Below are positions 8,938 to 21,647 of a DNA stretch of 64,000 nucleotides, piece after piece (within the stretch, counting starts at the first letter, position 1; the number at the start of each line of letters is the position of its first letter). Under the pieces are notes generated by a model. That model saw only the letters and a list, made by a program, of their open reading frames with translations, was not told the origin of the DNA and ran no database searches. Origin of the DNA: Burkholderiales bacterium (GTDB lineage: Bacteria; Pseudomonadota; Gammaproteobacteria; Burkholderiales; Burkholderiaceae_C); NCBI GenBank assembly GCA_947377275.1, contig CANCFV010000002.1, positions 1 through 64,000 on the forward strand, read 5' to 3'. The translations under genes were made by a program, and so were the position numbers.

Positions 8938-10176
8938 TTAGCCCCCGTGCGCGATCCGATCGGCGATGAACGAGGCGTCGCGGGCCACACCCGAAAAGCG
9001 CCCAGACCCCCAGGTGTGCAGCCAGGGCAGCCCCAGGAAGAACAGGCCCGGCTGCTGGGTGACGCCGCGGGCGTGGACCGGGTGGCCCTTGCCATTGAAG
9101 ACCGGCGCATCCACCCATTTGAAATCGGGCTCGAAGCCGATGCACCAGACGATGCTGGTGATGCCGGCGGCGCTCAGGTCGAGCGCCGTGGCTTCGGCCT
9201 CAGGCTGCCAGACGGGCGCATAGACAGCCGGCGGTAGGGCACTGAGGCCCTGGGCGGCAATGTGCTTGTCAATGGCCGCATTGATGCCGTTGTAGGTCTG
9301 GTCGGCGCGGTCCAGCGACTCGGTCAAGGTGGGTTTGAACTGCAGGGTGTGGCCGCTCAAGCCGTCCAGCAGGCCATGGAGCGCCATGCCTTCCAGGGCG
9401 AACTGGCGCAGGTCGATGTCTCGCCCACCGTCGCGGCCGGTCACATAGTGGTTGGTGTTGTCTCGCACGCCTTCACGCAGGGGGTGCTGGTCGACGGGCA
9501 TGTCGTAGTAGCCCATGTCGGCCAGCCAATCCACCACATCGCGACCGCGGTAGAAGCGGGCACAGCGCGGCGCATCACCCACGGCCAGGTGCACCTTCTT
9601 GCCAGCCAGGTGCAGGTCTTCGGCGATCTGCGAGCCCGACTGCCCGGAGCCCACCACCAGCACAGCCCCCTCGGGCAAGGCCTGCGGACTGCGGTACTGC
9701 TCGGAGTGGATCTGGGTGATGCTGTCGGGCAGGCGCTCGGCCAAGCGCGGGATGATAGGTTGGTGATATCCACCCGAAGCGATCACCACCTGATCGGCCG
9801 TGAAGTCGCCCGCACTGGTCGCCACCGCAAACCCACCCTCAGGGCGAGGCCTCACTTGGCGCACGCTCGTCTGCGTGAGCATGGGGGGCTGCACCTTGGC
9901 GAGGAAGGCGTCCAGGTAGGCCACGATCTGGTCCTTCTTCATGAAGCCATGAGGGTCGTCACCCGCGTAGTCGTGGCCCGGCAATTTGCATTGCCAGTTG
10001 GGCGTGACCAGGCTGAAGGCATCCCAGCGCTGGGTGCGCCAGCTGTGCATGGGCGTGTGCTTCTCGATCACCAGGTGATCGATGTCTTTGTGCTGCAGGT
10101 AATGGCTGAGAGACAAACCCGCTTGCCCGCCCCCCACGATGATGACGGGCAGGTGCTGGGGCGTGGTGGTGTTCAT
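8938..10176 (-). CDS. MSMEG_0569-family flavin-dependent oxidoreductase
   Basis: This 412-residue FAD/NAD(P)H enzyme resembles flavin monooxygenases. The FAD-binding GGGQAGLS motif is at residues about 15-22, and a second dinucleotide-binding GSGQSGSQIAEDL motif near 175-190 is for NAD(P)H. FFLGLPWLHTWGSGRFSGV near the C-terminus is typical of the MSMEG_0569 group. It is the last gene of the nitrilase cluster, downstream of the MSMEG_0570-like gene by about 60 bases. In the literature as I recall it, this cluster is tied to nitrile/cyanide nitrogen use, but the substrate of this oxidoreductase is not established. Confidence 0.88.
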   Translation of the reverse strand: MNTTTPQHLPVIIVGGGQAGLSLSHYLQHKDIDHLVIEKHTPMHSWRTQRWDAFSLVTPNWQCKLPGHDYAGDDPHGFMKKDQIVAYLDAFLAKVQPPMLTQTSVRQVRPRPEGGFAVATSAGDFTADQVVIASGGYHQPIIPRLAERLPDSITQIHSEQYRSPQALPEGAVLVVGSGQSGSQIAEDLHLAGKKVHLAVGDAPRCARFYRGRDVVDWLADMGYYDMPVDQHPLREGVRDNTNHYVTGRDGGRDIDLRQFALEGMALHGLLDGLSGHTLQFKPTLTESLDRADQTYNGINAAIDKHIAAQGLSALPPAVYAPVWQPEAEATALDLSAAGITSIVWCIGFEPDFKWVDAPVFNGKGHPVHARGVTQQPGLFFLGLPWLHTWGSGRFSGVARDASFIADRIAHGG

Positions 10177-10238
10177 GGGGCGTTCTTTTGGATGAGGTTG
10201 ACGGTGACGTTGCCTGGTGGAGCAGGGTTGCTGCTGTG

Positions 10239-10529
10239 TCAGCCAAGGTCGAAGGACTCGACCTTGACGCGGGCATCGGCTTGCCGGGCATAGGCGGTGG
10301 CGGTTTGGTGGATCTCAGCCCACTGATCCATGGCGCGCGAACAGGCAAAGCCGTACTTGGCACGCACGCGCTCAGAGGCGATCTCCAGGGCCTCGCGCAC
10401 GCGGGCCAGGAAGTCGTCGAGCGCGTAGTCCTGGCCCGGCGTGAGGAAGTCCTGAACGATCAGGGAGGGCGAGTAGCACTGGCTGACCTGGCCATCGGGC
10501 CAGCGCACAGAGAAATGCATTTCAGGCAT
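10239..10529 (-). CDS. MSMEG_0570-family nitrogen starvation response protein
   Basis: The 96-residue protein (MPEMHFSVRWPDGQ, then YSPSLIVQDFLTPGQDYALDDFL) matches the small conserved MSMEG_0570 family found only in nitrilase clusters. It has no catalytic motif, signal peptide or membrane segment. Its start overlaps the end of the glycosyltransferase gene by eight bases, implying translational coupling. Its biochemical role is unknown. Confidence 0.88.
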   Translation of the reverse strand: MPEMHFSVRWPDGQVSQCYSPSLIVQDFLTPGQDYALDDFLARVREALEIASERVRAKYGFACSRAMDQWAEIHQTATAYARQADARVKVESFDLG

Positions 10530-11817
10530 GGTGGAGAGACTCCGCGGATAAGGTGGAAAGACCGGCGTCAGGGTTGAGATGCAAGGAACCCAAACCGCGA
10601 TAGAGCGCCTCGTGGCGACGCGCGCTTTGGTCCCAGCTCATGCGGGCACACACGGCACCGGCACCCTGCACGATGGGGGCGGTGTGAAGCGGATCGAGGC
10701 TGTGCCACAAGGCCTGCGCGATGCTGTCGACACGGGTAGGATCGACCCAGAGCACCTCGTGTTCGCCCAGGTGCTCGGTGAACGGGGCCATGCGGGAGGC
10801 GATGGCCGGGGTGCCGCAGGCCAGCGCTTCAAGCACACACAAGCCGAAGCCCTCGCACAAAGAAGGCATGGCCAAGACCGTGGCGCGGCGGTAGAGGGCG
10901 GGCATGGCCTCATCGGGCAAAGGCCCCGTGACCCGCACCCGGCCCTCACCCGCTTGGCCTGGCGCCAGGCCGTTCTCGGTCAGCACGGCACGGAACGACG
11001 CTGCGATGGCCTCGTGGTCCAGCAGGCTCGCGCCACCGGCGATCACCAATTGCGCTTGCATGGCCTGCTGGGCCTGGTCTGGCCTGTGGCCTTGAGCATC
11101 TGTGGCTGCGCTGGCTTCTCGCCGCACCTGGGCAAAAGCCTGCAAGAGACGAACGGTGTTTTTGCGCGCTTCCACGCCACCCACGGCCAACCAAACAACG
11201 CCCTCAGGCTGCACGCCAAGGCTGGCGAGCAGGTCTGCATCACGTCGTGCCTGGGTCTCGTCGACCTGCGCCTGAAAGCGCTGCACATTGACGCCGTTGG
11301 GCACCCACTGCGCCAACCGAGACCAGGTCTGTGCCAACTCGCACTGCCAGAGTGTGCTCACGCAGCACAACTGGCTCGCGGCCATCACACCGCGGGTCTG
11401 CCAGCGTCTCAGCTGGGGTTCATCAAAGTGGTCCAGGTGGTGCACCGTTCGCACAAAGCCTGGGATGCGGCCTTCTTCCCGCAGCGTGGCCAGCGCGTTG
11501 GCCGTGATGCTGTCTTGCGAGTGCAGCACGTCGAAGGTGCCCAGATCAGGCAGGGCGCGCAGGTGATCGGTCATGAACTGGATGCGTGCACCGACCATGT
11601 CGACCAGCCCCGCAGGCAGGGCTTGCGGCAGCGAGGCCACAGACAGCTTGGCGCGCGTGGGGCGGAACAAGGTCTGGCCTGCCTTGGCGCTGGCCATGAG
11701 GGTGACGTCGTGCCCGCGCTCGGTGAGGGCGTCGGCAAGCTCCAGGGCGTGGACCACACCACCGCGTGGGTTGAGCGAGTGCATCAACAAGCCGATGCGA
11801 AGCGGGCGCGGGCTCAT
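10522..11817 (-). CDS. MSMEG_0565-family glycosyltransferase
   Basis: This GT-B fold glycosyltransferase (GT4 type) is 431 residues long from the ATG at 11817, which makes an ATGA overlap with the upstream AIR-synthase-like gene; the track's 44 extra residues are rejected. The N-terminal RIGLLMHSLNPRGGVVHALELADAL is typical of the acceptor domain, and MPSLCEGFGLCVLEALACGTPAIAS near the C-terminus is the donor-binding EX7E region. It is a constant member of the nitrilase cluster, but its sugar donor and acceptor are unknown. Confidence 0.9.
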   Translation of the reverse strand: MSPRPLRIGLLMHSLNPRGGVVHALELADALTERGHDVTLMASAKAGQTLFRPTRAKLSVASLPQALPAGLVDMVGARIQFMTDHLRALPDLGTFDVLHSQDSITANALATLREEGRIPGFVRTVHHLDHFDEPQLRRWQTRGVMAASQLCCVSTLWQCELAQTWSRLAQWVPNGVNVQRFQAQVDETQARRDADLLASLGVQPEGVVWLAVGGVEARKNTVRLLQAFAQVRREASAATDAQGHRPDQAQQAMQAQLVIAGGASLLDHEAIAASFRAVLTENGLAPGQAGEGRVRVTGPLPDEAMPALYRRATVLAMPSLCEGFGLCVLEALACGTPAIASRMAPFTEHLGEHEVLWVDPTRVDSIAQALWHSLDPLHTAPIVQGAGAVCARMSWDQSARRHEALYRGLGSLHLNPDAGLSTLSAESLHHA

Positions 11818-12854
11818 GCGGCAGCCTCTGTGGCAGTGCGGGGGCAGATGAAGGGCTCGCGCTGAAAGTCCCACAGCAAAGCGGGCTCGGCATCGCCTTG
11901 TGTCAGCCACACTTCGCGGCTGTCGTTGACTTGCCCGATCACGGCGCAAGCTAGGCCTTGGGCCTCACAGCGCTGCATCAAAGGAGCGAGGTTCGGCGTG
12001 TCAACCGAGAGCAAAAAGCCAAAGCTGGGGAAGGCCTGCAACCAACGCAGCCAGGCGGCAGGTGCATCCAGCGGGCCATGCCCCGGGGGGTGCGGGATGG
12101 CATTGAGGTTGATGCGACAACCCACACGAGAGCACTCCAGCAGCATCAAGGCCGTGCCCAAGATGCCCGCCATGCTGATGTCTTTGGCAGCGGCGCTCCA
12201 GCCCGCTTCGGCGATCTCGGGCAACAAGGCCAGGTCGCTTCGAAGGCGCGCGGGTGGCGCCTCGGTGGAGGCGTTCCAGAAGGGCTGGTTCTGCTTCCAG
12301 CGTCCCCTCAAGTCCACCAACATGACCAGGCTCTGCCCGGCGCGCGCCTGGAAGCTCGACAGCAAGGCCTTGGCACGCCCCAGCACCGCCACGGCCAGTT
12401 GCCCGCGTGCCGCGCGGTTGTTGCTGTGGCCGCCCACAATGGGCACGCCATACGCGGCCGAGGCCGCCGCCATGCCCTTGAGCACGGGGTCGGCGCCGGC
12501 CTGACCTTGCGACCACAAGGCATCGACCACCGCGATGGGCCGCCCGCCCATGGCGGCGATGTCTGAGAGGTTGACCATGACGCCGCTGTAGCCCGCGAAC
12601 CAAGGCATCTGCTCCACAAAATCTTCGACCATGCCCTCAATGGCCAAGAGCAGGTGGCCATCGGCATCGGGGATGGCCGCGCAGTCATCGCCCAGCAGCA
12701 CGCCCTGATCGGCCGCGAGCGTGGTGTCGGCCAGGCCGCCTGGCAGCGCTTGCGCCAAGGCCGTGACCACATCGCTGATGTCGCGCTTGTGGGCAAATCC
12801 GCGGCCGGCACGCAGCGTGCTCACCAGGTCGGTCAAGGGCAAGGGGCTGCTCAT
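11814..12854 (-). CDS. Sll0787-family AIR synthase-like protein
   Basis: This 346-residue protein resembles PurM/HypE/SelD-type ATP-binding enzymes. DQGVLLGDDCAAI carries the metal- and phosphate-binding aspartates, and MVNLSDIAAMGGRPIAVVDAL and GHSNNRAARGQLAVAVLG are the further family blocks. The start is the ATG at 12854, which overlaps the GNAT stop by four bases. Related proteins activate a substrate through phosphorylation with ATP. In Synechocystis the counterpart (Sll0787) lies in the nitrilase cluster. In some actinobacteria I recall it fused to the GNAT; here the two are separate but coupled. Confidence 0.88.
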   Translation of the reverse strand: MSSPLPLTDLVSTLRAGRGFAHKRDISDVVTALAQALPGGLADTTLAADQGVLLGDDCAAIPDADGHLLLAIEGMVEDFVEQMPWFAGYSGVMVNLSDIAAMGGRPIAVVDALWSQGQAGADPVLKGMAAASAAYGVPIVGGHSNNRAARGQLAVAVLGRAKALLSSFQARAGQSLVMLVDLRGRWKQNQPFWNASTEAPPARLRSDLALLPEIAEAGWSAAAKDISMAGILGTALMLLECSRVGCRINLNAIPHPPGHGPLDAPAAWLRWLQAFPSFGFLLSVDTPNLAPLMQRCEAQGLACAVIGQVNDSREVWLTQGDAEPALLWDFQREPFICPRTATEAAA

Positions 12855-13480
12855 CGGGTGCTGCCTTTGCCGGCCAAGGTCACATAGCCCCACTCGGGCG
12901 CCATGCAGGGCGGGTAGTGGGCCAAGCTGGCCTGCATCAAGCCGTGCGGGCGGCCATGCAGCAGCTTCTCGCCGTGCAGGGCCCAGTTCAGCTGCGTGAA
13001 CAGGGGCACGTTCTGCGCTTGCACATGGGCCCAGAACGCGGTGGCGCCTTGTGCGTGCGCCATGCCCACGGCCAGTCGGATCAAGGTCGCGCCCAGCCGC
13101 CCCACATGCCGGAAGGAGGGGTGCACGGCCAGGCGAGAGCCCCACCACACGCCAGGCTGGTCCGGGTCTTCGTGGATGCGCACCGTGCCCACCACCTGGT
13201 CGCACTCGCCCGCCACACAGGTGCAGGCCACGAGCAATTGGGCGTGTGCGTCGATGGCATCGCGGTCGTCGCCCACGAACACGCCTTGCTCCATGCAGAA
13301 CACCATGCGGCGCAAGGCATGGGCCTCGCGTCGCTCCCAGGCCTCGCTGGCTTGCTTGACGCGGAACTCGGTGGGCGTGAAAGCGGTGGGCAGCTCATTG
13401 CCCCAATCGCCATGCCACGTCGGCAAGGCATGGGTGCTTGGCATCACCGTTGAAATCACCGTTGAAGCGAGGTCAGACAT
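12851..13480 (-). CDS. MSMEG_0567/Sll0786-family N-acetyltransferase
   Basis: This 209-residue protein has a GNAT fold from about residue 40 to 195. The line RLAVHPSFRHVGRLGATLIRLAV is the acetyl-CoA-binding motif, and WGYVTLAGKG closes the protein. The N-terminal 35 residues look poorly conserved. It sits between the radical SAM and AIR-synthase-like genes of the nitrilase operon, with a 21-base gap before it and a four-base overlap after it. The acyl acceptor is unknown. Confidence 0.88.
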   Translation of the reverse strand: MSDLASTVISTVMPSTHALPTWHGDWGNELPTAFTPTEFRVKQASEAWERREAHALRRMVFCMEQGVFVGDDRDAIDAHAQLLVACTCVAGECDQVVGTVRIHEDPDQPGVWWGSRLAVHPSFRHVGRLGATLIRLAVGMAHAQGATAFWAHVQAQNVPLFTQLNWALHGEKLLHGRPHGLMQASLAHYPPCMAPEWGYVTLAGKGSTR

Positions 13481-13501
13481 GGCGGGTGCTCCTGCAAGGT
13501 C

Positions 13502-14641
13502 TCAGGCCAAGGGGGTGGTCTCGTACACCGACAAGGACGAGCAGGCGCCGCACTTGCCGCAGCCGGCCTTGATGTCGCCCGAACGCAGGCCAGCGGCGCT
13601 GACCATGGCGCCCAAGGGCTCCAGCACGCTGCGCATGAATTGGGGGTCGGGCGCGGGGTGGCCTTCGAGCGGGGTGCCGCTGATGGGCACAAAGGGCACG
13701 ACGAAGGGGTAGACGCCCATGTCCAGCAGGCGCTGGCTCATGCCCAAGATGGCCTGTTGGCTGTCACCCAAACCGGCCAGGATGTAGGTGCTGACCTGGC
13801 CGCGTCCAAACACCTTGACGGCCGCCTCGAAAGCACTGAAATAGCGCGACAAGGGCATGCTGGCCTTGCCCGGCATGATGCGTTCGCGCACCTCGGGCGT
13901 GACGGCCTCCAGGTGCATGCCCAGGGTGTCGACGCCCGCGTCCAGCATGCGCTGGAACCACGCGTCGTCATCGGGCGGCTCGCACTGCGCTTGGATGGGC
14001 AGGTTGACGGCCACCTTGATGGCACGGGCGCTCTCGGTCAAGATGGCAGCGCCACGGTCGGGTGTGGCCGGCGTGCCGGTGGTGAGCACCATGTGCTTGA
14101 CGCCATCGAGGGCCACCGCGGCCTTGGCCACCTCGGCCAACTGCGCCGGCGTCTTGTGCGCGATGGTGCGCCCTGCAGCCAGCGATTGCCCGATCGAGCA
14201 GAACTGGCAGGTCTTCTTGCGGCTCTCGTAGCGGATGCAGGTTTGCAGCACCGTGGTGGCCAGCACATCGCGGCCATGCAGGGTGGCGATGTGCGAGTAA
14301 GGCACACCCTCGGCCGTTTGCAGCGCATAGAACTTGGGCGTGGCCGGGAAGCTCAATTGGGCAATGGGGATGCTGGCGTGTCGCAGCGTGCTCATGCCAT
14401 CGGGGCCCGGAGCATCGGCCAGGAAGGGCGAATCGAAGGCTGGGGCCGTGTGCACGGGCACCATCACCGTGTGCCCTTCAATGGTCACGGCCTTGTGGTC
14501 AGAAGGGCCGGCCCCGCCACGGCGGCTGGCCAGGCCGGCGCCAGGGTCGAGCAGGCGCATGCCCCTGGACTGCAGCTCGGTCACCAGCGCGCGGGCTTGT
14601 GGGCTCAAGGTCGCGGCCATCACATCGGAACTCGGGGACAT
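13502..14641 (-). CDS. MSMEG_0568-family radical SAM protein
   Basis: This 379-residue enzyme has a radical SAM barrel whose cluster-binding cysteines are spaced CX9CX2C (CIRYESRKKTCQFC) rather than the usual CX3CX2C. A C-terminal CGKCGAC motif probably binds a second iron-sulfur cluster. TPKFYALQTAEGVPYSHIA and NLPIQAQCEPP are further conserved blocks. It is ten bases upstream of... that is, it follows the nitrilase gene by about ten bases in the operon. The reaction is unknown; its constant pairing with the nitrilase suggests that it makes or processes the nitrile substrate. Confidence 0.9.
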   Translation of the reverse strand: MSPSSDVMAATLSPQARALVTELQSRGMRLLDPGAGLASRRGGAGPSDHKAVTIEGHTVMVPVHTAPAFDSPFLADAPGPDGMSTLRHASIPIAQLSFPATPKFYALQTAEGVPYSHIATLHGRDVLATTVLQTCIRYESRKKTCQFCSIGQSLAAGRTIAHKTPAQLAEVAKAAVALDGVKHMVLTTGTPATPDRGAAILTESARAIKVAVNLPIQAQCEPPDDDAWFQRMLDAGVDTLGMHLEAVTPEVRERIMPGKASMPLSRYFSAFEAAVKVFGRGQVSTYILAGLGDSQQAILGMSQRLLDMGVYPFVVPFVPISGTPLEGHPAPDPQFMRSVLEPLGAMVSAAGLRSGDIKAGCGKCGACSSLSVYETTPLA

Positions 14642-14650
14642 GCTTGCTCC

Positions 14651-15745
14651 TCAGGCCACACGGGCCAGCGGGTTGCGGGAGAGATCGGGCGTGCTGGCCG
14701 TGGCGGCTTCGGCAGCAGCACGGCTGGCAAGGTTCAGGCCAGGCGTGCTCACCGCCCCGATGCCATCGGCACCGGCGGCTTGCATCGCGGCCGAGAGGCC
14801 ATGCACGGGCGAGGTCGGGCGGTCGTCGAGGTTGAGGCTGAGCAACTCGGGGCGGGCGTAGTGCCCCACCGAGTCCATCATGCGTTTGCGCTTGGTGATC
14901 AGGCTCATGTCGAGGTCGGCGATCACCAGGCCCTCGCCCTCTTTCAGGATGGGCGCCAAGGGCACACCTTCCGGCGAGATGATGGCCGTGCAGCAACCGC
15001 CACGCAGGCCGCGTTGCAAGCCCTTGTCAGGCGTGATCGACTCGATCTGCTCGTCCGTCAACCAGCCCGTGCTGTTGATGACAAAGCAGCCCGCCTCCAG
15101 CGCGTGGTGGCGGATGGTCACCTCCATCTGGTCGGCAAAAATGGGGCCCACCAAAGAGCCCGGGAACTGGGCGCAGTGGATCTCTTCATGCTGCGCCATC
15201 AGGGCGTAGCGGGCCAAGGGGTTGTAGTGCTCCCAGCAAGCCAGGGCACCCACGCGGCCCACGGCGGTGTCGACCACCTTGAGCCCCGCGCCATCGCCCT
15301 GCCCCCACACCATGCGCTCATGGAAGGTGGGCGTGAGCTTGCGGCGCTTGAGGCGCAAGGCCCCGGTCTCGTCAAAAATGAGCTGGGTGTTGTAGACGCT
15401 GCCGTGGTCGCGCTCGTTCACACCGAGCACCACCACCATGCCGTGCTGACGGGCCCGTTGGCCCACCGCATCGGTCACCGGGCCAGGCACCACCACCGCA
15501 TGCTCGTAGAGCGCCATGTGCTCCGCGCCAGACAACATGGGCGGGCGGATGAAGCTGAAGTAAGGGTAGTAGGGCACGAAGGTCTCTGGGAAGACGATCA
15601 GCTCGACGCCTTTGGCCGCAGCCTCGTCGATCGTGGCAAGCACTTTGTCCAACGTGCCCCCAGGCTCGTGGGCCGCCTTGTTCAGCACCGGTGCGATCTG
15701 CACCGCAGCCGCCTTGACGATGCGCTTGGTGGTGTCCTGGCTCAT
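14651..15745 (-). CDS. Nit6803-family nitrilase
   Basis: This 364-residue nitrilase (carbon-nitrogen hydrolase superfamily) would convert nitriles to carboxylic acids and ammonia in the cytoplasm. The catalytic triad is visible as E54 (FPETF), K136 (RRKLTPT) and C170 ([12 protein letters not shown]). The family otherwise shows [11 protein letters not shown] and [17 protein letters not shown]. It is second in the cluster, 18 bases after the Sll0783-like gene. The C-terminal 40 residues are Ala-rich and variable. Nit6803-type enzymes act on a range of nitriles in vitro; the physiological one is not settled. Cluster members of this kind have been linked to growth on cyanide as nitrogen source in pseudomonads. 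Confidence 0.93.
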
Positions 15746-15763: not shown

Positions 15764-16246
15764 TTACAGCGTCCAGGTGTCGATCACGACGGCGTTGGCC
15801 TTCTTGTGCAGCAGCACGATGTCCAGCACGTCGAGCGGGTTGATCGGGCGGATGCCTTCGATCAGCGAGCCTTCACCGTGGCCATACAGGGCTTGCAAGG
15901 CAAAGCGGCAGGCGTAGACCTTGCCGCCCTCTTCCATGAACTTGGTGATCTGCTTGTTGAAGTTCTGGTGGCCAGGGAAAGCCTCGTCGCCCAGCTTGGG
16001 AAAGCCGCGCTTGACACCCAGGGTCACACCTGGGCCGTACAGCAGCACCGAGGTCTCGTAACCCTTGCGCTGCAGGCGTGTGGCTTGCAGCAGGTTGACG
16101 AAACCGATCGAGCCTTCAAAGGCCACGGTGTGGAAGGTCACCAGGGCCTTTTCGCCGGGCGAGGCCTTCACGTCTTCAAAGACCTTTTCTTCGTAGTCGA
16201 CCAGGAATTCGCCGATTTCATTGGGGGCTTTGGTCACAGCAGGCAT
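15764..16246 (-). CDS. MSMEG_0572/Sll0783-family nitrogen starvation protein
   Basis: The 160-residue soluble protein is the first gene of the nitrilase operon. Its sequence ([28 protein letters not shown], then [17 protein letters not shown]) resembles the DsrE/DsrF-like fold and matches the Sll0783 family, whose cyanobacterial member is nitrogen-starvation induced. The C-terminal [29 protein letters not shown] is characteristic. No catalytic function is assigned. It starts about 100 bases from a dense set of GCGATCAA repeats shared with the divergent MocR regulator. Confidence 0.9.
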
Positions 16247-16347
16247 GGGTCATCTCCAAAAAGTGAGGTTGTCAAACGGGTGGAACGGAAAGGGGCGCGC
16301 GCTGGTTCAACGGGTGCATCAGGTGTGCCACCGCGGGCCAAGCTGAT

Positions 16348-16447
16348 GCGATCAATCAGCGATCAATGCAAACGCGCCCCTGGAGGTGGATCAGCCCCAT
16401 TCCTTGATCGCGAGAAATGCGATCAATCCACAGCGAACAGCGATCAG
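16348..16447. promoter_or_regulatory. Operator array: five GCGATCA(A/G) copies
   Basis: Within 100 bases of the divergent gap, GCGATCAA occurs at 16348, 16359 and 16419, its reverse complement TTGATCGC at 16404, and GCGATCAG at 16440. The copies at 16404 and 16419 form a perfect eight-base inverted repeat around seven bases. The first two are direct repeats 11 bases apart, about one helical turn. They lie between the nitrilase operon and a MocR-type regulator, so they are probably that regulator's binding sites. The remainder of the 342-base gap shows no gene. Confidence 0.6.
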
Positions 16448-16588
16448 ACCCATCACGCACAGGTGGCGAGCATCCGCACCACCGTGGCGCCAAACAAGCT
16501 GCGACACCCAGGTGCCGGGGCCAACGCGCCCTCATTGAGTGCATTTGCACAACCAATCAAATGGAACAAAAGATGCAATCAATGCCGC

Positions 16589-17986
16589 ATGCCTCACACC
16601 TTTGCACGCCTTTGGGCTCAGCGTTTGCGCGACAGCGGCAAGCCGGCCTACCTGCTCATCCCTGAACTGTTGGCCGAAGACCTGGCCAGTGGGCGCCTGG
16701 AGCCCGGCGACCGCCTGCCGCCCTTGCGCGAACTGGCCGTGGCGCTGGGCCTGAACTACACCACCGTGGCCCGAGGGCTGTCGGAGGCGCAAAAGCGCGG
16801 ACAGATCGACGCCCGGCCCGGCCGCGGCAGCTTTGTGCGTTCAGCGACGCCGGCCTTGCCCTTGCGGGGTGGCACCTCGGCAGAGATGACGATGAACCTG
16901 CCCCCAGAGTCCGACGACCCCGCCCTGCTGCAGCGCATGGCCGATGGCTGCGCGCAACTGCACAGCGACCCGCAGCGCCTGCTGGCCCACCTGCGCTACC
17001 AAGATTTCGGCGGCAGCCCCGCAGACCGCGACGCCGGCGCCCGCTGGCTCAGCGGCATCATGGGCGCGACCCAGGCCGAACGTGTGCTCGTGGGCCCTGG
17101 CATTCACGGCGTGCTGTGTGGGTTGTTGAGCCTGCTGGCCAGGCCAGGTGACACGGTGTGTGTGGAGTCGGTCAGCTACCCCGGCATCAAGGCCTTGGCC
17201 ACCCAATTGGGCATCAAGCTCTACGCCCTGCCGGTGGACCAGGAAGGGCCTTGTCCTCAGCACTTTGAAGAGGCCTGCAAGCACGTGCACCCCAAGGCGC
17301 TGTACTGCAACCCCACCATGCTCAACCCCACGTCGGTGACCATGAGCCAGGCGCGCCGAGAAGCCCTGGCCGACATCGCACTGCGCTACGCCATCCCCAT
17401 CATCGAAGACGATGCTTATGGCGCCTTGCCCACCAAAGCGCCCACCACGCTGGCCGAACTGGCGCCCGAGCTGACCTACCACGTGACCGGCTTTGCCAAG
17501 TGCCTGGGCGCGGGCCTGCGCGTGGCCTATGTGCACGCGCCCACGCTGCAAGCCACCCAGCGCTTGGCCGGCGCGATGCGGGCCCTGACCGTGATGGCGG
17601 CACCGCCCATGGTCTCTCTGGCCACGCATTGGATCAACGATGGCACGGCCCGGGCGGTGGTGCAGGCCATCCGAAAAGAAACCAATGTGCGCCACAGCAT
17701 GCTGCTGCAGCACCTGAGCGAGTGGGAGGTCTGGAGCCAGCCCGAGTGCTTTCACGCCTGGCTGCGCTTGCCCGACACGCTCAGCCCCAACGAAGCGGCC
17801 TCGTTCTGGCGTTCACGCGGGGTGGCCGCGGTGGCCAGCACGGCCTTTGCCACCAACACCGCGCCCCCGCGGGCCGTGCGACTGTGCCTGGGCGGCCCGA
17901 CCACACAGGCGCAGTGCGAGCAAAGCCTGCGCGTGGTGGCCGACGTGCTGCGCCACCCCGAGCAAGTCCACGCCTCGGTGATGTGA
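16589..17986 (+). CDS. MocR-type regulator (GntR HTH + aminotransferase domain)
   Basis: The ORF track gives 1448 residues starting at 13640, but everything before 16589 is antisense to the nitrilase genes. The ATG at 16589 starts a normal 465-residue MocR protein. Residues about 1-75 form a GntR winged helix (LEPGDRLPPLRELAVALGLNYTTVARGL), and the rest is a class-I aminotransferase domain with the PLP region YCNPTMLNPT, IIEDDAYG and the lysine-containing GFAKCLGAGLR. It ends two bases from the convergent ccoG stop. Its divergent placement beside the nitrilase cluster suggests it controls that cluster; MocR proteins typically sense PLP-reactive amines or amino acids. Confidence 0.87.
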   Translation: MPHTFARLWAQRLRDSGKPAYLLIPELLAEDLASGRLEPGDRLPPLRELAVALGLNYTTVARGLSEAQKRGQIDARPGRGSFVRSATPALPLRGGTSAEMTMNLPPESDDPALLQRMADGCAQLHSDPQRLLAHLRYQDFGGSPADRDAGARWLSGIMGATQAERVLVGPGIHGVLCGLLSLLARPGDTVCVESVSYPGIKALATQLGIKLYALPVDQEGPCPQHFEEACKHVHPKALYCNPTMLNPTSVTMSQARREALADIALRYAIPIIEDDAYGALPTKAPTTLAELAPELTYHVTGFAKCLGAGLRVAYVHAPTLQATQRLAGAMRALTVMAAPPMVSLATHWINDGTARAVVQAIRKETNVRHSMLLQHLSEWEVWSQPECFHAWLRLPDTLSPNEAASFWRSRGVAAVASTAFATNTAPPRAVRLCLGGPTTQAQCEQSLRVVADVLRHPEQVHASVM

Positions 17987-20216: not shown

Positions 20217-21647
20217 ATGGCCACCCTCTACGAACAACTCGCCGAAGCCCTGGCCTTGCGCATCCATGAGGGCAGCCTTCAACCCGGCGAGCGCCTTCCT
20301 TCGGTGCGACAAACCTGCGGGCAGGCCCAGGTCAGCGCCTCCACCGTCTTCCAGGCCTATGACCTGCTGGAATCGCGCGGCCTGATCGAGGCCCGCCCGA
20401 GGTCGGGCTTTTTCGTGCGCAAACAGCCCCGAAAGGCCGCCCCACCAGCCCTGGCCCTGCCCGCACGTGCCGACAGCACCGAGGTGGCCATCAGCGAACT
20501 GGTCTTCGAGGTGCTGCACAGCACCCGTGACCGCGACGTGGTGCCCCTGGGCTCGGCCTTCCCCTCGCCCGACCTCTTCCCGCTGGACCGCTTGGCCCGC
20601 GACGGCGCACGCGCCATGCGGCGGCTGGCACCCCAAGCGCTGACATCCGAGCTGGCGTCGGGCAACGCCCGCCTGAGAGAGGCCCTGCGCGCCCGTTGTG
20701 TGCGCCAAGGCATGCAGGTCGGCAGCGACGACCCCATCATCACCAACGGGGCCATGGAGGCGCTGAACCTCAGCCTGCAAGCCGTCACGCAACCGGGTGA
20801 TGTGGTGGCCCTGGAAGCCCCCACGTTTTATGCCGCGCTGCAAGCGTTGGAGCGGCTGCACCTGAAAGCGGTTGAGATCCCGACGCACCCGCAATGGGGC
20901 GTCGAACCCGATGGGCTGGCCGAGGTCATCCAGCGCCACCGCGTGGCCGCCTGCTGGCTCATGCCGCAGTTCCAGAACCCGCTGGGCGCCCTCATGCCGC
21001 ACGCACGCAAACAGGCCGTGATGCACACCTTGACGCAGGCCGGCATCCCCGTGGTGGAAGACGATGTGTATGGCGAACTGCACCATGGCAGCACCCGTCC
21101 GCTGCCGCTCAAGGCCTTCGACCGCGAGGGGCTGGTGCTGTACTGCAGCTCGTTCTCAAAGTGCTTGGCGCCCGGCTACCGCGTGGGCTGGGCCATGGCC
21201 GGTCGCTTCAGCCACCAGGTGCACAAGCTCAAGATGATGAGTTCGCTGGCCACATCGGTGCCATCGCAGTTGGCCATTGCCGAATACCTCGAAGAGGGCG
21301 GCTACGACCGGCACCTGCGGCAACTGCGCCATGCCCTGGCAGACAGCCTGGCCCTGTTGCGCGAGCAGGTGCTGCGCCACTTCCCCAAAGGCACACGCGT
21401 GTCACGCCCGGATGGCGGCTACTTCTTGTGGGTGCACATGCCCGATCAGGTCGACACCCTGGTGCTGCACCGGCAAGCACTGGCCCAAGGCATCAGCATC
21501 GCACCAGGCGTGCTGTTTTCAGCAGACCAGCGCTTCCGAAGCGCGATGCGCCTCAACGGCGGACACCCCAGCGACGCACGGCTCACCCAAGCGGTTCGCT
21601 GGCTGGGTGCGCAGGCCCAAATGCAGATGCAGACGGGGGCAGCTTGA
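20217..21647 (+). CDS. MocR-type regulator (GntR HTH + aminotransferase domain)
   Basis: This 476-residue protein has an N-terminal GntR helix-turn-helix (LQPGERLPSVRQTCGQAQVSASTVFQAYDLLESRG, residues about 20-65) followed by an aminotransferase-fold domain with PLP motifs (IITNGAMEALNLSLQAV, PVVEDDVYG, and SSFSKCLAPGYRVGW, whose lysine would bind PLP). It belongs to the PdxR/MocR group of dual-domain regulators. Only about 58 bases separate it from the divergent acyl-CoA-dehydrogenase-like gene, and it may regulate that gene and ccoG. It differs markedly from the MocR protein at 16.6 kb, so the two are not recent copies. Confidence 0.88.
   Translation: MATLYEQLAEALALRIHEGSLQPGERLPSVRQTCGQAQVSASTVFQAYDLLESRGLIEARPRSGFFVRKQPRKAAPPALALPARADSTEVAISELVFEVLHSTRDRDVVPLGSAFPSPDLFPLDRLARDGARAMRRLAPQALTSELASGNARLREALRARCVRQGMQVGSDDPIITNGAMEALNLSLQAVTQPGDVVALEAPTFYAALQALERLHLKAVEIPTHPQWGVEPDGLAEVIQRHRVAACWLMPQFQNPLGALMPHARKQAVMHTLTQAGIPVVEDDVYGELHHGSTRPLPLKAFDREGLVLYCSSFSKCLAPGYRVGWAMAGRFSHQVHKLKMMSSLATSVPSQLAIAEYLEEGGYDRHLRQLRHALADSLALLREQVLRHFPKGTRVSRPDGGYFLWVHMPDQVDTLVLHRQALAQGISIAPGVLFSADQRFRSAMRLNGGHPSDARLTQAVRWLGAQAQMQMQTGAA

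Follow-up and report, generated by a model that had tools for sequence, protein, structure and literature searches.

The window analysed here, a stretch of 64,000 nucleotides from a Burkholderiales bacterium (contig CANCFV010000002.1), carries a Nit1C gene cluster on its minus strand (NCBIfam TIGR04043-04049, all above cut-offs) and, facing away from it, a gene for a MocR-type regulator. Because nitB occupies 15764-16246 on the minus strand and mocR starts at 16589 on the plus strand, the divergent gap between them spans 16247-16588. The features discussed below are the following:

8938..14641, minus strand: other Nit1C genes (radical SAM, GNAT, AIR synthase-like, glycosyltransferase, small ORF, flavin oxidoreductase; NCBIfam TIGR04043, 04045, 04049, 04047 and 04046, all above cut-off)
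14651..15745, minus strand: nitC, Nit6803-family nitrilase (TIGR04048, 574 bits, cut-off 503)
15764..16246, minus strand: nitB (MSMEG_0572/Sll0783 family), first Nit1C gene (TIGR04044, 280 bits, cut-off 110)
16315..16330, minus strand: sigma-54-like nit promoter TGGCACACCTGATGCA (-24/-12), sole TGGCAC-N5-WTGCW match in the window
16348..16366, plus strand: module A, GCGATCAA-tca-GCGATCAA, a direct repeat with a spacing of 11 bp that lies upstream of the nit promoter
16404..16426, no strand assigned: module B in its clade variant, perfect inverted repeat TTGATCGC-N7-GCGATCAA, a layout common to close relatives
16440..16447, plus strand: fifth box GCGATCAG, 21 bp from 16419, as seen in the window sequence
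16476..16490, no strand assigned: tentative NtrC-like site GCACCACCGTGGCGC, weak alone in the window and only partly palindromic
16553..16582, plus strand: module C, CCAATCAA-N14-GCAATCAA (22 bp), adjoining the mocR start, with the same layout in L002, L032 and L051
16589..17986, plus strand: mocR, regulator of 465 aa with a GntR winged helix-turn-helix and a class I aminotransferase-like domain (PF00392, PF00155), the proposed box binder

Within the Nit1C cluster, a 96-aa ORF at 10239-10529 (minus strand) without a Pfam match occupies the place of the MSMEG_0570 gene in other Nit1C clusters. The MocR protein combines an N-terminal GntR winged helix-turn-helix (PF00392, 48.7 bits, cut-off 27) with a C-terminal fold-type-I aminotransferase domain (PF00155), and its PLP lysine K304 is present in 119 of 119 readable orthologues. 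Pfam gave no AAA+ domain. Identity with the ectoine regulator EhuR/EnuR, the closest NCBIfam model (NF052286), was rejected: the score of 380.5 bits lies below the cut-off of 480 and no ectoine genes are adjacent, the neighbour being Nit1C in the window and in 100 divergent gaps. Membership in the HutC subfamily was rejected as well, as there is no UTRA ligand domain and Pfam gives the aminotransferase domain instead. A second MocR-type regulator is located 2.2 kb from the first (20217-21647, plus strand); its matches to PdxR (261 bits) and YczR (242 bits) are both below cut-off.

A sequence-only reading of this DNA had described five copies of GCGATCA(A/G) between 16348 and 16447, including one perfect inverted repeat and a direct repeat spaced by one helical turn. 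In a pattern scan of the window we found exactly these copies, at 16348(+), 16359(+), 16404(-), 16419(+) and 16440(+). The direct pair 16348/16359 measures 11 bp from start to start, and TTGATCGC-N7-GCGATCAA at 16404-16426 is a perfect 8-7-8 inverted repeat that remains the sole match in the window when up to three mismatches are allowed. From 16419 to 16440 the spacing is 21 bp (two turns). GCGATCAR occurs 17 times in the 64 kb (5.5 expected), and the densest 100 bp hold five copies, against at most two in 200 dinucleotide-shuffled versions of the entire window. The 11-bp direct pair is seen once in the window, where none is expected; a scan of the whole own genome (3.8 Mb) for further regulon members returned a single perfect match, again the one at 16348, and neither a further perfect 11-bp pair nor any perfect 13-bp pair. 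The range assigned to the array, however, was too narrow. When a weight matrix of the boxes, built from other genomes only, was run over the window, rank 1 went to 16573-16584 (ATGCAATCAATG), adjoining the mocR start, while 16417 and 16346 ranked second and third and 16357, 16402(-) and 16551 also scored high. Two further boxes thus adjoin mocR outside 16348-16447. Module C, which lies there, is a probable autoregulation site of mocR as judged from its position.

To follow the boxes across genomes, nitB and MocR loci were gathered from family genomes and GTDB species genomes, which gave 100 divergent mocR/nitB gaps and, after removal of near-duplicates, 83 non-redundant ones. The repeat is present in these orthologous regions across proteobacteria, so that its absence there, which had been named as refuting the sequence-only reading, does not apply: SCRATCAA boxes occur in 81 of the 83 gaps, against about 10 in shuffles, with 365 sites against 10.6 expected; two gaps are without boxes. 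Same-strand pairs less than 20 bp apart are spaced by 11 bp (58 pairs) or 13 bp (59), with one at 12 bp, and wider same-strand spacings are scattered, 22-23 bp being found in 11. Three modules recur: module A, aTGCGATCAAtnnGCGATCAA, lies close to the nit promoter, module B, aTGCgATCAATGCacCCGATCAA, occupies the central part of the gap, and module C, ATGCaATCAAtnnaTGCgATCAA, is found beside mocR. Other lineages have a 13-bp direct repeat where the clade of the window has the inverted repeat, whose 8-7-8 layout was found in six close-relative loci (L002, L049, L052, L031, L051 and L058, some of them duplicated between collections). In this clade, module A and the inverted repeat are 56, 67 or 79 bp apart, distances that differ by about one turn. 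Across the gaps, the A-to-B distances cluster at 99, 110, 118, 128-129 and 139 bp. In the conserved putative operator the modules are direct repeats, spaced by 11 and 13 bp, and the perfect inverted repeat is limited to this clade.

Searching 301 family genomes for the 11-bp pair gave 54 matches (28 near mocR and 26 elsewhere), compared with 0 for a reversed-pattern control; the pair lies at most 600 bp from mocR in 28 of the 35 family genomes that carry this MocR. Two family genomes (G046 and G167) contain 11-bp tandem arrays of GCGATCAAnnn (L149:987-1027 and L150:962-991), without MocR and with no nit or mocR similarity nearby. Such unrelated repeats of the same word might suggest that here, too, a GATC-rich word has clustered by chance or formed a simple tandem repeat, but the shuffles described above and the conservation with fixed spacing in 81 of 83 gaps speak against it; the conservation refutes this reading, and we attach practically no weight to it. 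A search for Nit1C across the whole class yielded few loci. In a plasmid collection searched with nitB, Nit1C was common (515 records, 374 of them Klebsiella).

Which protein the boxes belong to can be judged from four comparisons. In Methyloversatilis and one related genome (L034, L056, L061, L063, L068) the mocR orthologue is not divergent; it follows the nit genes downstream, in the same orientation, 7-8 kb from nitB where contig coordinates are comparable; modules A and B are still located upstream of nitB, and no paired boxes were found upstream of the displaced mocR. Nit1C loci without a MocR neighbour (Synechococcus, Elainella, Rhodococcus, Acinetobacter) have no paired boxes, the Acinetobacter cluster (NitA-type, with a sigma-54 regulator) showing two isolated single boxes. 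No box pairs were found upstream of ten MocR paralogues with 36-38% identity. Finally, the box varies with the recognition helix: a change from Tyr57 to Phe57 goes along with a change from TTGAT to TTGAC (TTGATCGC against TTGACTGC), as 96 loci with Asn56-Tyr57 have 453 TTGATYGS and 0 TTGACYGY sites and 22 loci with Phe57 have 13 and 30, a covariation that is largely nested in phylogeny, Phe57 being mostly alphaproteobacterial, with one clear independent case. Oxalicibacterium (L109), a betaproteobacterium with Phe57, has three C-type boxes and no T-type box. Neither box type was found in several alphaproteobacterial MocR/nitB gaps (L132, L158, L186). Relatives of the alphaproteobacterial MocR (L183, L184, L186, L190) also have DUF983 genes and a gene of the cysteine-synthase family as neighbours, and Nit1C is not in every case nearby; a wider role of these relatives in the cyanide response is possible.

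Since the four comparisons (displaced mocR, MocR-less Nit1C, paralogues and helix covariation) agree, we infer that the GCGATCAA boxes are very probably landing sites of the adjacent MocR, predicted to bind them physically on a promoter of the sigma-54 type. It might be argued that the proximity of MocR and boxes is mere linkage and that the binder is NtrC, a different enhancer-binding protein or some global regulator, particularly as NtrC-like elements lie in the same gap. Yet the boxes track the presence of MocR and its recognition helix, they remain at nitB in clusters where mocR has changed its place, and they are nearly unique in the genome, unlike the sites of a global regulator; we consider such a binder very unlikely. 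Still less probable, and hardly worth entertaining, is that the boxes serve autoregulation of mocR alone and leave the nit operon untouched. Module C does abut the mocR start, but Methyloversatilis keeps A and B at nitB with mocR 7-8 kb away, and module A is held at a fixed distance from the nit promoter.

This promoter has features that the sequence-only reading had missed. Alone, the TGGCAC-N5-WTGCW match in the window is not significant. Across the collection, a TGGCAC-N5-TGC-like element was found on the nit strand in all 83 gaps at a score of at least 9/12, and the best site reaches at least 10/12 in 66 of 83 (1.2 expected in shuffles), with a full match to the sigma-54 consensus TGGCACG-N4-TTGC in Azospirillum, Ancylobacter and Pantoea. 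A consensus scan of the gap gave no sigma-70 promoter, and Rfam gave no match to a structured RNA. The nit promoter looks sigma-54-dependent. Box A is placed 33-34 bp from the sigma-54-like element in 45 of 58 gaps; in 8 others the distance is one turn longer (44-45 bp). Module A thus lies upstream of the -24/-12 element without overlapping it, unlike the site of a classic blocking repressor. On the mocR strand, sigma-54-like elements with a score of at least 10 are present in 27 of 83 gaps (1.9 expected). The copy in the window, TGGAACAAAAGATGC at 16562-16576(+), is degenerate and lies about 12 bp from the assumed ATG; in this clade (window, L002, L031, L051) the element overlaps module C.

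Sigma-54 promoters require an AAA+ activator, and MocR is none. The own genome encodes NtrC (677.6 bits, cut-off 558.6), and a search of it (G000, assembly 87% complete) with Acinetobacter NitA gave AAA+ domain matches only and no full-length NitA. Control by NitA was rejected for this Nit1C cluster, given that its divergent neighbour is MocR and that G000 has no full-length NitA match. NtrC is the likeliest candidate for activator of the nit operon. In 25 of the 83 gaps (3.7 expected) the best NtrC-like site (GCACC-N5-GGTGC) scores at least 10/12; such sites concentrate in two zones, some 120-145 and 180-205 bp upstream of the promoter element, and family-wide the GCACC elements flank module B in fixed register. 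Nitrogen control would fit with the induction of sll0783, the nitB homologue of Synechocystis, on nitrogen starvation (PMC3901256). In the open-access papers searched, no link between Nit1C and NtrC was found.

Taken together, it seems moderately likely that NtrC and sigma-54 activate the nit operon under nitrogen limitation and that a PLP-dependent, autoregulating MocR, probably a repressor, gates this activation. The modules would serve two divergent promoters, with A just upstream of the nit promoter, B further up and C at mocR. NtrC would activate the sigma-54-type nit promoter through enhancer binding and, being the best activator candidate in this lineage, would turn the operon on when nitrogen is short. 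MocR dimers may sit on the paired boxes along one face of the helix. From A, next to the polymerase, and from B, flanked by the NtrC-like sites, they would most likely keep the nit promoter in check, and the DNA between the two modules may loop. A PLP-reactive signal tied to cyanide or nitrile would then release MocR, and through module C MocR would regulate its own gene. A reaction of PLP with cyanide as this signal is speculation on our part. It is also conceivable, but unlikely, that we are looking at a proteobacteria-wide MocR regulon in which PLP senses cyanide or nitrile chemically and a sigma-54/NtrC promoter is gated by helically phased looping, a mode of action without a MocR-family precedent in the open-access papers searched.

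The sign of the regulation deserves separate consideration. Several MocR regulators, such as TauR and GabR, are activators. MocR could act positively on the same boxes: in an architectural or cooperating role, as a co-activator, it would assist the sigma-54 activator by IHF-like bending or by recruitment. Module A is located upstream of the sigma-54-like element rather than over it, at a helically fixed distance, and the phasing of A and B is compatible with bending or looping of either sign; as box A leaves the -24/-12 element free, we regard co-activation as possible, though clearly less probable than repression. MocR has no AAA+ domain and cannot itself open a sigma-54 complex, and the sole tested cyanide-linked MocR is a repressor (PMC8567248). 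We favour a MocR repressor that is released by a nitrile- or cyanide-linked signal, on the analogy of the MocR mutant of strain CECT5344 (PMC8567248) and of HutC at a sigma-54/NtrC promoter (PMC8871633, PMC12977541). The specific MocR-dependent nitrilase switch that had been proposed from the sequence holds in so far as the boxes are conserved and track MocR; the sigma-54-like promoter and the NtrC-like sites had been overlooked, and MocR is probably one of two inputs.

If so, the regulatory parts of a widespread bacterial cluster for scavenging nitrogen from cyanide or nitriles, as it exists outside pseudomonads, would become open to test: regulator, operator and promoter. The locus would also add a probable instance of sigma-54 promoters under a MocR regulator, and the pairing of Tyr57/Phe57 with TTGAT/TTGAC offers a natural covariation set for studying the poorly known code by which MocR proteins recognise DNA. 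For Nit1C, a putative MocR operator at a promoter of the sigma-54 type appears to be new: in the accessible text of the open-access papers searched there is no report of MocR control of Nit1C, and those naming both MocR and nitrilase concern the cio/Nit4 system or mention MocR in passing.

Among the MocR regulons of Suvorova and Rodionov 2016 (PdxR, GabR, TauR, EutR and others), multi-box direct and inverted repeats with helical-turn spacing and an adjacent autoregulated regulator are described as well (PMC5320631). The boxes reported here differ from the TGT/TGG core noted there, and the EutR motif given there is palindromic, unlike our direct-repeat modules; the main text names no nitrilase, and the relevant passages do not take up sigma-54 promoters. 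The EhuR/EnuR/EutR ectoine regulator, although its model comes closest to the MocR of the window, stays below cut-off and lacks adjacent ectoine genes here. HutC at Pseudomonas hutU resembles the proposed model, as a GntR-family regulator gates an NtrC-activated sigma-54 promoter with sites that crowd and overlap (PMC8871633, PMC12977541). However, HutC belongs to its own subfamily, with urocanate as ligand and a TGTA-N2-TACA palindrome, while an aminotransferase-like MocR with direct-repeat GCGATCAA boxes is found here. The MocR of the cio cluster in CECT5344 is likewise a MocR over a nitrilase in a cyanide setting: in its mutant the cio proteins including Nit4 are constitutive, as stated in the relevant passage of PMC8567248 and given there as unpublished proteomics. 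That MocR represses the cio genes and Nit4 rather than Nit1C, and neither its operator nor its promoter type is described in the text passages concerned. The Nit1C cluster of CECT5344 itself (Pseudomonas pseudoalcaligenes/oleovorans, NitA-NitBCDEFGH) shares with ours the operon family, a divergent regulator and an expected control of the sigma-54 type. Its regulator is the sigma-54-dependent, enhancer-binding NitA (PMC11049912), where the window has MocR. The earlier suggestion that pseudomonads control this cluster differently is therefore right for the regulator, whereas the sigma-54 promoter type is probably shared.
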